Shown here piece after piece: positions 9,341 to 59,589 of a DNA stretch of 60,018 bases. Source of the DNA: a virus; IMG/VR virus record IMGVR_UViG_3300020083_000009, positions 1 to 60,018 of that record; one strand, given 5' to 3'. The position numbers and the translations under genes are program-made. How positions within the stretch are numbered: the stretch's first letter is position 1; each line of letters starts with the position of its first letter. The notes beneath the pieces are model-generated. The model worked only from the letters and a program-made list of their open reading frames with translations. It made no database searches and was not told the DNA's origin.

Positions 9341-9991
9341 TTACTTTTTAAGTTTGTATGTGTAGATGTGTTTACCTGGAGTGTCAACGTAGTGTGCCTC
9401 TCCAGTTTCTAATGCAGTCTTCAATTCTTGTGCAAAGGGTTTCAATGCCTTAACACCATACTTGTTCTCATAATATGTTCTGATTGACTTATCATGAAAC
9501 GTGCGTCCACGATACTCAATCAATTTACCCTTTGAGGTTAAACCATGATATTCAAAGTTTGATGCCTTGTAGATTGTACCACAGTGACCATGGTGACTGT
9601 CTGCATAAGAGACTACAGTTTTGTAGCCAGTATTTTTCTTCATCCAACGTAGTGTCTTACCAATAAAGTAACTCTCAGTGTTACGTGGAGTCTTATCAAT
9701 ACAACAGAGGCGGCGAAGTTCAACAATATCCTCCTCTCGGTCAGCATACTTCTTCCAAGTATTTGCCATACCAAGAGAACCATAGATCATGGCACCAATA
9801 AGATTATTATCTGCCATGAGTGCAAACACATTTGATATACGAAGACCATTGACATTACCAGAATAATGCCAAGTCTCTACAAAATCTCTTACAATTTGAA
9901 TGTTTGATGGGGCAACGACAAACTGCTTTACGTTACATGAGGTATAATCCTCATCCCCGTAAAACATGTCCATAAGCATATTTGACTTCAT
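9341..9991 (-). CDS. Mom-like GNAT-fold DNA modification candidate, 216 aa
   Basis: The protein matches the pattern of the phage Mu Mom family: WHYSG near residue 41, a hydrophobic strand pair (LIGAMIYG), ELRRLCCIDKTPRNTESYFI at 91-110, then VVSYADSHHGHCGTIYKASN. Mom proteins use a GNAT-like fold to convert adenine in DNA to N6-carbamoylmethyladenine, protecting phage DNA from restriction. I infer a base-modification or acyltransferase role; the exact chemistry is not visible. The first ATG (9991) overlaps the upstream nuclease-like gene by 41 bases. ATGs at 9973 and 9967 are alternative starts. It is the last gene of the operon starting at 10720. Confidence 0.65.
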   Translation of the reverse strand: MKSNMLMDMFYGDEDYTSCNVKQFVVAPSNIQIVRDFVETWHYSGNVNGLRISNVFALMADNNLIGAMIYGSLGMANTWKKYADREEDIVELRRLCCIDKTPRNTESYFIGKTLRWMKKNTGYKTVVSYADSHHGHCGTIYKASNFEYHGLTSKGKLIEYRGRTFHDKSIRTYYENKYGVKALKPFAQELKTALETGEAHYVDTPGKHIYTYKLKK

Positions 9992-10508
9992 CTGCGGTCT
10001 CTCTAGCAGTGTTAATGACTATATCACGTAGCTGAGCGTAATCAATACCGATCCATGCCCAGAAGGCTTCTCCTCCGATGTAGCGGATATTGTCCTTAGT
10101 GTAATCGAAAGAATCACCAAAAGCAATAGCAAAGAAAGCTTGAGACTCATGTTGTACGGTGGTACGAATAAGTTTTTCAAGTGAATCATTCTTATGAGTC
10201 CCAGTTTGTGTGTTTTTGTTTGCCTTAAGTTGACCTTCCCACTCTTCATTGATGAAAAGATCCACACCTAAAACCTTTCGTTGCCCCTTGTCAGTATTGC
10301 GGACATTATTTCCACAGGTCTCTGCAATTTCTTGAAGAGCATAACCAAGACAAGTTGTAAAGGTCTTCTCAAAGGTTGCCCAGATGAGAACCTCTGGAAC
10401 TGCCTCTTTGATAATGTTAAGGTTTTTAGCATGAAGATTCTTGTAGATCTTCATGACGGTCTTCTGTTTAATTGGATGTAAAATTGCTTCAATTAAAAGT
10501 TTATTCAT
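9951..10508 (-). CDS. Nuclease-like (restriction-endonuclease-type) protein, 185 aa
   Basis: Residues 81-96 (GVDLFINEEWEGQLKA) fit the PD-(D/E)xK nuclease core: Asp83 at the end of one strand and a (E/Q)xK at 93-95 on the next. A Glu in a preceding helix (about residue 60) also fits. The later block FGDSFDYTKDNIRYIGGEAF, then WAWIG, is distinctive and recalls restriction-endonuclease-like genes I have seen in cyanophages. I cannot test this without a profile search. Its stop lies inside the Mom-like gene and its start overlaps the Lys-rich gene by ATGA. Adjacency to a modification gene makes a restriction-modification-like pair plausible. Confidence 0.55.
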   Translation of the reverse strand: MNKLLIEAILHPIKQKTVMKIYKNLHAKNLNIIKEAVPEVLIWATFEKTFTTCLGYALQEIAETCGNNVRNTDKGQRKVLGVDLFINEEWEGQLKANKNTQTGTHKNDSLEKLIRTTVQHESQAFFAIAFGDSFDYTKDNIRYIGGEAFWAWIGIDYAQLRDIVINTARETADEVKYAYGHVLRG

Positions 10509-10720
10509 TTCATAAAAGCCTCTAGCCCTTTGATCTTAGCAGCTTTTTTAACGGTGCGTCTACCCTTTGTGGCAGTTTTTTTACTGGCACTCTTGATGTA
10601 GTTTTTAGCTTCGTCCAAGGTTTTAAACACCTTGTCCTGCTGCCCCATGTGAATAATCATATATTCTTTACCAAAGGGGACAGCAGCCCACTCCTGGTTA
10701 CTTGACACGAATCCTTCCAT
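10505..10720 (-). CDS. Small protein with histone-like basic tail, 71 aa
   Basis: Residues 1-42 (MEGFVSSNQEWAAVPFGKEY and following) look folded. Residues 43-65 are Lys/Ala/Thr-rich (KSASKKTATKGRRTVKKAAK), as in DNA-binding tails. It is the first gene of an operon with the nuclease-like and Mom-like genes, so it may be a DNA-binding accessory or controller. This is inferred from composition and position only. Confidence 0.6.
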   Translation of the reverse strand: MEGFVSSNQEWAAVPFGKEYMIIHMGQQDKVFKTLDEAKNYIKSASKKTATKGRRTVKKAAKIKGLEAFMK

Positions 10721-10730
10721 GTGTTATGCT
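10702..10730 (+). promoter_or_regulatory. Plus-strand promoter for the two small rightward genes
   Basis: TTGACA (10702-10707), a 17-base spacer and TATGCT (10725-10730) precede the gene at 10772. The -35 and spacer overlap the first codons of the leftward gene. Confidence 0.6.
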
Positions 10731-10742
10731 GTGAACATTCTA

Positions 10743-10771
10743 AATATAGCATACTTTGTGGAAGATGTCAA
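10743..10771 (-). promoter_or_regulatory. Minus-strand promoter of the nuclease/Mom operon
   Basis: TTGACA (10771-10766), a 17-base spacer and TATATT (10748-10743) fire leftward into the gene at 10720. It sits back to back with the plus-strand promoter at 10702-10730, so transcription in the two directions would interfere and could be balanced by one regulator. Confidence 0.7.
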
Positions 10772-10963
10772 ATGATGAATCCAAATGAAATCAAGCTAGA
10801 GTCGATTGATCGCATGTTTCATTATGAGGCTCAAGCAAGATACTTAGACGAGTTGGATCGTGAACCCGCGATTGAAATGGCAAAGTGCTATCTCAAGCTG
10901 TATCTCAAGCAACAGGAGGTTATTGCAGACCTTGGTGGCTTGGGGTTGACAGACGAAGATTGA
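10772..10963 (+). CDS. Conserved cyanophage helical protein, 63 aa
   Basis: The product begins MMNPNEIKLESIDRMFHYEA and is wholly helical, ending LKQQEVIADLGGLGLTDED. The NPNEIKLES...YLKLYLKQQEV pattern is one I recognise from many T4-like cyanophages, of unknown function. Two consecutive ATGs (10772 and 10775) are possible, with GGAAG upstream. It is one of two rightward genes in an otherwise leftward block. Confidence 0.6.
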   Translation: MMNPNEIKLESIDRMFHYEAQARYLDELDREPAIEMAKCYLKLYLKQQEVIADLGGLGLTDED

Positions 10964-58309: not shown

Positions 58310-58426
58310 TTATCTGTCAAGTGGTCGTTCGGCTGGAGGCTTATAATCTTTTGATGGACGATACAAATTAGGAAATGTATCTCTGATTATTCCCGCCAAC
58401 TTATACGGCACATCTGTTGCAATCAT
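58310..58426 (-). CDS. 38-residue ORF coupled to psbA
   Basis: The ATG (58426-58424) overlaps the psbA stop codon by ATGA. The product [20 protein letters not shown] continues [18 protein letters not shown], a basic peptide with a Pro-rich tail. It ends just before the terminator, so psbA and this ORF share an mRNA. The ATGA coupling and full open frame argue for a real gene. Confidence 0.5.
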
Positions 58427-59502
58427 CCAATAGAAGGTGCAATCAAAGCAACAGAGGTTGATCCAGCAGTAGCCAAGTCCAGAGGGAAGTTGTGAGCATT
58501 ACGCTCGTGCATCACTTCCATACCAAGTCCTGCACGATTGAGGATGTCTGCCCAGGTAGGGATGACTTTGCCTTCACTCGATACAATGGACTGGTTGAAG
58601 TTGAAACCATTCAGGTTGAATGCCATGGTGCTTACACCGAGAGCAGTGAACCAGATGCCAACCACGGGCCAAGCAGCCAGGAAGAAGTGCAGTGAACGAG
58701 AGTTATTGAACGATGCATATTGAAAGATCAAACGACCGAAGTACCCGTGGGCAGCAACGATGTTGTAGGTCTCTTCTTCTTGACCGAACTTGTAACCATA
58801 GTTCTGGCTTTCGTTCTCGGTAGTCTCACGAACCAGCGAGGAGGTCACGAGTGAACCGTGCATCGCAGAGAACAGAGAACCACCAAACACACCAGCAACT
58901 CCAAGCATATGGAAGGGGTGCATCAGAATGTTGTGCTCAGCCTGGAACACAAGCATGTAGTTGAACGTACCAGAGATACCCAAAGGCATCGCATCAGAGA
59001 AGGAACCTTGACCAAAAGGATACACCAGGAACACAGCAGTTGCAGCTGCAACGGGTGCAGAATAAGCAACCATAATCCAAGGGCGCATACCCAGACGATA
59101 GGAGAGTTCCCACTCACGACCCATGTAGCAGAAGATGCCAATGAGGAAGTGGAAGATAATCAGTTGAAAGGGTCCCCCATTGTACAACCACTCATCCAGA
59201 GAGGCTGCTTCCCAGATGGGATAGAAGTGAAGTCCAATAGCATTGGAAGATGGGACAACAGCACCAGAGATGATGTTGTTTCCATACATAAGCGACCCAG
59301 CTACGGGTTCACGGATACCATCGATGTCCACGGGAGGAGCAGCGATGAAGGCGACGATGAAGCAAATAGTTGCGGCAAGCAACGTCGGAATCATCAACGT
59401 ACCGAACCAACCCACATAGAGGCGGTTGTCGGTTGAAGTAACCCACTGGCAGAATTCTGTCCAGAGATTAGAAGTTCGTTTTTGAGCAATTGTAGCAGTC
59501 AT
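58423..59502 (-). CDS. psbA: Photosystem II D1 protein PsbA
   Basis: The 359-residue D1 is complete and includes Tyr161, Asp170, His190, His198, His215, Ser264, His272, His332, Glu333, His337 and Asp342, the ligands of P680, YZ, the manganese cluster, iron and QB. Residue 130 is Glu, as in high-light D1 forms. The C-terminal processing site is after Ala344. I use [10 protein letters not shown] at 59502, discarding the upstream open frame, which lies in the leader. Phage D1 keeps host photosynthesis running during infection. The gene is GC-richer than neighbours, suggesting host origin. It has no intron. Confidence 0.97.
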
Positions 59503-59589
59503 TTGTTTTAAAAGGGTAAGTAAAGCCAGCAGGGAACTGGAAGTACAAATATGTTCCACACCACCCTCAGATGTGGACATGAGAGACGT

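Follow-up and report, generated by a model that had tools for sequence, protein, structure and literature searches.

An overlapping nuclease-Mom gene pair in cyanophages as a candidate restriction-modification-like module with an exchangeable nuclease

A Mom-family DNA modification gene of a T4-like cyanophage is preceded by, and overlaps with, a gene for a predicted EcoO109I-like nuclease, and relatives of this nuclease are exchanged in place beside mom. The pair can be envisioned as a two-gene, phage-borne restriction-modification-like module in which a broad protector (Mom) is joined to an exchangeable cutter, a reading to which we give a probability of about 0.75. It was studied in a 60,018-nt stretch of viral DNA (the window; IMG/VR record IMGVR_UViG_3300020083_000009), whose origin in a T4-like cyanophage is indicated by psbA (58423-59580) and by T4-type baseplate and tail genes; the closest named relative is Synechococcus phage DSL-LC03 (173 kb). 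The original prediction had described nuclease-like and Mom-like genes as co-oriented and overlapping, as the reading frames confirm (Table 1). That the two belong together as a pair is borne out by the nuclease fold, linkage, co-inheritance, a shared promoter and purifying selection on both genes.

Table 1. Features of the module and its upstream region in the window
Feature	Position	Strand	Basis
Mom-family (GNAT-fold) DNA modification protein, 216 aa	9341..9991	-	PF25680, PHROG 1384, PDB 8bv8
Predicted PD-(D/E)XK (QxK variant) EcoO109I-like restriction-type nuclease, 185 aa	9951..10508	-	AlphaFold model, Foldseek, motif
41-nt overlap of nuclease 3' end and mom 5' end	9951..9991	-	ORF coordinates
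Lys-rich small ORF, 71 aa, 13 Lys	10505..10720	-	Conserved only in the window's subgroup
Sigma-70-like promoter TTGACA-N17-TATATT, TG before -10	10743..10771	-	Promoter-like site scoring

The assignment of the downstream gene to the Mom family, proposed from Mom/GNAT motifs, stands far above chance. Its protein belongs to Pfam family PF25680 (E 6.4e-34; 117.8 bits against a curated cut-off of 27.1) and matches both PHROG 1384 (E 6.3e-58) and PDB 8bv8, ‘Methylcarbamoylase mom’ (E 9e-9), with the HYS, EL.R and AD...G..Y.ASNF blocks of 8bv8 kept in the alignment. Mom relatives are frequent among phages (252 records). The window enzyme is predicted to modify adenine in DNA. Purifying selection is seen on mom (dN/dS about 0.02-0.11) as on the nuclease gene (0.06-0.15), ratios that are rough, dS being high in both cases.

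Profile searches run directly with the nuclease against Pfam, PHROGs, NCBIfam, PADLOC and PDB sequences gave no usable match. No resemblance in sequence between the window protein and known restriction enzymes can be detected; the orthologue in DSL-LC03 was labelled ‘type II restriction endonuclease’ by its depositors. Close relatives are held in IMG/VR (78-84% identity), and a DNA-level pattern built on the conserved QxKxNxNTQxG block led to a diverged branch (about 47-51% identity) of what we call family A. Scans by short conserved peptides, which distant relatives can escape, found no homologue in 84,980 bacterial and archaeal genomes or in plasmids, and among annotated phages DSL-LC03 was the only carrier. 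The possible PD-(D/E)xK core proposed at the outset (Asp83, with QxK at 93-95) is exact in the sequence and invariant in 18 of 18 distinct aligned family A members, as are the helix glutamates E47 and E60 and a TQTGTH segment, and the fold model agrees with it.

That model was obtained with AlphaFold from a 32-row alignment joining family A to a second family (B, described below) and reaches a mean pLDDT of 90.5 and a pTM of 0.86, confidence being lower around residues 71-80 and 101-110 (block means 66-71); an earlier input of 10 close sequences had given a pLDDT of only 40. It contains an alpha-beta-beta-beta-alpha-beta core (H38-65, E69-71, E84-86, E90-95, H103-119, E123-128), with D83 before or at the second core strand and Q93 and K95 on the third. 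Foldseek returned EcoO109I (1wtd) as the top PDB match (E 4.6e-5, probability 1.00) at a moderate TM-score (TMq 0.52), followed by the DdmD nuclease, the small subunit of BspD6I and, much lower, AgeI. A structural match to a nuclease, named at the outset as the check for the 185-aa protein, was thereby found, and the model shows a PD-(D/E)XK nuclease fold. The Pfam profile RE_EcoO109I (PF14511) does not match the window protein at its curated cut-off; it matches 5 of the 32 aligned family members, the best score of 24.9 bits (cut-off 22.5) being reached by L017, a family A protein of a different phage. Endonuc_Holl is weakly matched by two aligned members. Taken together, the model, the weak Pfam matches to relatives and the conserved motif point to a nuclease, which would be expected to cleave DNA in a metal-dependent manner. 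TnsA is another nuclease with QxK. Glutamine also stands in for glutamate in at least one restriction enzyme, BtgZI (PMC4081073), and with these two precedents the QxK of the window protein is compatible with an active nuclease.

Approaching the pair from the Mom side revealed how widely it recurs. Among the 80 best Mom loci, inspected for an upstream partner, 20 carry family A and 25 carry family B. Of the rest, 11 are preceded by another Mom-like gene, 20 lack a partner of these kinds and 4 are truncated. Family B stands where family A does, likewise overlapping mom, is about 20% identical to family A and carries a canonical ExK motif (D70-x8-E79-x-K81) whose D, E and K are invariant. The B HMM reaches family A proteins (E down to 6.5e-6), the sub-threshold B HMM matches listed in the fetched loci are family A proteins, and profile-profile comparison of the two agrees only moderately (E 9e-5, probability 59%); A and B are taken as one superfamily.

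Linkage is complete on the nuclease side. Mom lies downstream of and overlaps the nuclease in 25 of 25 family A contigs with a visible neighbour (the window and DSL-LC03 included; two more contigs end within the nuclease) and overlaps it in 27 of 27 family B contigs gathered by a scan directed at B. These counts are per contig, near-duplicates included; 17 different Mom sequences are accompanied by a family A partner and 14 by a family B partner. The overlap is retained in relatives of both families, while genomic context varies (psbA/psbD neighbourhoods, glutaredoxin and other genes). Conversely, Mom stands without an A or B nuclease in 31 of the 76 related loci among those best 80 whose upstream side is readable. 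In S-SSM7 Mom is present and the nuclease is absent genome-wide, by a search that finds the DSL-LC03 copy at E 3e-84, and no nuclease is annotated beside Mom in RaK2, ICP1 or Enterococcus, Corynebacterium and Aeromonas phages. Because the nuclease is always with Mom and Mom is often alone, the nuclease appears to depend on Mom and not the reverse, as would be expected if Mom is an antidote; for Mom itself, its solitary occurrence makes shielding from host enzymes a sufficient role. Comparison of co-occurrence, put forward as a check of the pairing, thus came out as a strong correlation (52/52).

Other arrangements were encountered at mom. Two diverged Mom-like genes stand in tandem at L067, L072, L079 and L082, the upstream copy carrying SYADATQ.HHGGIYQACSW, and possibly represent two modification specificities. 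In Geobacillus phage PK3.6 (L124:2505-3687) an HNH nuclease gene likewise precedes and overlaps mom, and the two may be a nuclease-Mom pair of independent origin.

Nuclease and Mom have also been inherited together. Their distances correlate in family A (Mantel r 0.85, 0/999 permutations) and in family B (r 0.44, 4/999 permutations). On the Mom tree, carriers of A and carriers of B interleave, and there are pairs of loci whose Mom proteins are 90-92% identical and whose partner nucleases are only about 20% identical. In three such comparisons (L076/L085, L088/L095 and L040/L073) the sequences run colinear up to the nuclease gene and again beyond it, and are dissimilar within it. In base-level alignments of two pairs the swap begins just past the shared promoter region and the ATGACTGC start and ends at the last nuclease codons, inside the mom overlap. 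Given these colinear flanks and junctions, the nuclease ORF has been swapped as an exact unit with promoter and Mom retained: the nuclease gene of one family takes the place of the other's, from start codon to stop codon. Together with the constant linkage to mom, such swaps suggest a plug-and-play, phage-borne restriction-modification weapon.

Several other readings of these patterns deserve consideration. The nuclease could be a selfish, homing-like or competitive element that cuts genomes lacking the cassette or bearing a rival one, with Mom as its immunity gene; the module is indeed found at many different genomic positions, its nuclease gene is replaced in place in colinear phages as competing mobile cassettes would be, and the HNH gene of the Geobacillus phage overlaps mom. 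We regard this as unlikely, since the fold is EcoO109I-like and not of a known homing type and an intron or intein setting is absent; moreover, a nuclease with Mom as immunity is functionally a restriction-modification pair, so that the two readings overlap. Alternatively, an enzyme of general repair, of recombination or of host DNA degradation, such as one resembling Holliday-junction resolvases, might merely adjoin mom. PD-(D/E)XK folds do include resolvases, the weak Endonuc_Holl matches fit, and T4-like phages encode several nucleases, but linkage with mom in every one of the 52 contigs across unrelated contexts, the kept overlap, co-inheritance and the exchange of only the nuclease while Mom stays in place make this account highly improbable.

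It is also conceivable that the nuclease-like protein does not cut at all and instead assists Mom, binding DNA or RNA so as to target or regulate it, comparable to Com in phage Mu. The obligate association with Mom on the nuclease side and a gene order and overlap like those of com-mom would suit such a helper, yet D83, Q93, K95 and the helix glutamates are invariant in A, and D, E and K in B, under purifying selection; Mom is found elsewhere without a nuclease-like protein, and the model has a nuclease fold and no zinc finger. A non-cutting helper is distinctly unlikely on these grounds.

For the restriction-modification-like module, the following sequence of events can be envisioned. Transcription from the sigma-70-like promoter and translational coupling through the overlap would lead to both proteins being made together. 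The Mom-type GNAT enzyme would modify adenines of the phage DNA and so shield it, and the compact EcoO109I-like endonuclease would cut DNA at sites without the modification. Virion DNA would arrive already modified, leaving the nuclease to meet only unmodified DNA, whether the host chromosome, co-infecting phages and plasmids, or both. Mu Mom has relaxed specificity. If modification takes place in a similarly relaxed context here, one Mom could protect against nucleases of differing specificity, and such broad shielding would account for the exchange of the nuclease while Mom stays. More tentatively, at odds a little short of even, a relaxed Mom may protect against the whole nuclease repertoire, giving restriction-modification without matched specificity in which nucleases are swapped freely, forming an arsenal that evolves in conflicts between phages or with the host. 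Should one Mom indeed shield against interchangeable nucleases, the rule that restriction and modification share a target would not apply, and nuclease-Mom pairs would offer new nucleases that share one resistance gene.

Parallels with known systems are partial. T4 combines glucosyl-hmC protection with the host-degrading nucleases EndoII and EndoIV, and there, too, a modified base restricts the attack of phage nucleases to foreign DNA; in T4, however, cytosine is the modified base and the nuclease genes are unpaired with the modification gene. Mu com-mom has the same gene order and overlap as the window pair, a Mom-family enzyme likewise following an overlapping upstream gene. In Mu, by contrast, this upstream gene encodes Com, a small zinc-finger translational activator and not a nuclease, and Mom only protects. 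PMC6483171 describes Com as a regulator of Mom translation in phage Mu. EcoO109I (PF14511, PDB 1wtd) offers the closest solved fold, with a shared PD-(D/E)XK core; it differs from the window nuclease in length (a chain of 267 residues against 185 aa) and in its ExK motif, whereas the window protein has QxK, is phage-borne and is partnered by Mom instead of a methyltransferase. Type II restriction-modification systems link a nuclease to a modification gene, as is the case in all contigs with a visible neighbour, and the modification enzyme is a SAM methyltransferase, a place taken here by a GNAT-type Mom. The partner not being a methyltransferase, the module is not a classical type II system, though it may work like a restriction-modification pair.

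The coupling itself has been anticipated. Iyer et al. 2021 predicted REase-fold domains fused to Mom in jumbo phages, which would turn on host or superinfecting DNA while leaving modified phage DNA intact (PMC7824862); this prediction for fused proteins is the sole published statement on such coupling that we found. The cyanophage module resembles the jumbo-phage fusions (PMC7824862) in coupling a REase-fold nuclease to a Mom GNAT enzyme. Unlike those single fused proteins, it consists of two separate, overlapping genes, and its nuclease is EcoO109I-like and exchangeable. The idea of REase-Mom coupling is therefore already published, and what differs here is the unfused overlapping cyanophage pair, the EcoO109I-like nuclease and its in-place exchange. 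The module provides an unfused, genetically separable and recurrent case of a phage restriction-modification-like pair in which Mom is the likely protector, and suggests a concrete mechanism, open to test, by which cyanophages could compete or degrade host DNA. One fusion-like protein was compared directly: a 538-aa protein of Pseudomonas phage PA5oct (L163:406-2022), with weak NUMOD3 and REase_MTES_1575 matches and a divergent Mom-like GNAT domain, shows no match to the A, B or joint HMMs. Its nuclease-like part differs from A and B and its Mom is very divergent, and it looks more homing-like than a protective Mom.

Upstream of the pair, the original prediction of a leading Lys-rich protein and a promoter holds in that both are present, with the refinement that the small protein is no part of the module, with which it is not conserved. 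The 71-aa ORF overlaps the nuclease start by 4 nt, is conserved only among close relatives of the window and is absent from the diverged module loci tested; other cyanophages also have homologues, and two of these phages, DSL-LC02 and S-SRM01, gave no match to Mom. It is presumably a co-transcribed neighbour outside the conserved module, and a role as controller protein was dropped for want of this conservation. The promoter is one of the two best promoter-like sites in 6 kb (11/12), in a region where such sites number no more than chance, so that the match alone is weak evidence; its -35 TTGACA does not vary among the 7 sequences aligned from the window's subgroup. Most diverged loci have a sigma-70-type site (10-12 of 12, scored with no shuffle control) upstream of the nuclease start, the spacer being nearly always 17 nt, and in about half of them an intrinsic-terminator-like hairpin carries the -35 box within its loop or next to it. 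At L018, L038, L073, L085, L095, L133 and others this composite terminator-promoter stands about 30-60 nt upstream of the nuclease start, with the -35 TTGAC in the hairpin loop, then a T-run, then TATAAT at 17 nt. So compact an arrangement would insulate the module.

Further observations concern the surroundings of the pair. The promoter overlaps the 5' part of a divergent ORF (10721-10963, plus strand), and a plus-strand CTAAATA in this region resembles cyanophage late-promoter motifs. A few genes downstream of mom lies a gene of the pyrimidine dimer DNA glycosylase family (PF03013; 7880-8428, minus strand), a family also represented in DSL-LC03.

Site avoidance was considered as a possible imprint of modification. 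The window is depleted in CCGG (1 observed, 29.5 expected) and GGCC (7 observed, 42.9 expected), and most A-containing palindromes are not depleted. As a Mom signature the palindrome pattern was rejected, given that the Mom-less phages S-CAM8 and S-T4 avoid CCGG and that marine family A contigs avoid AGCT; genome-wide, palindrome avoidance does not differ between module carriers and non-carriers. In S-CAM8, which holds a structurally similar protein, profile searches found no A or B relative and no Mom, the Mom search having been run without a positive control. Avoidance of CCGG in cyanophages with and without Mom probably reflects host restriction pressure.
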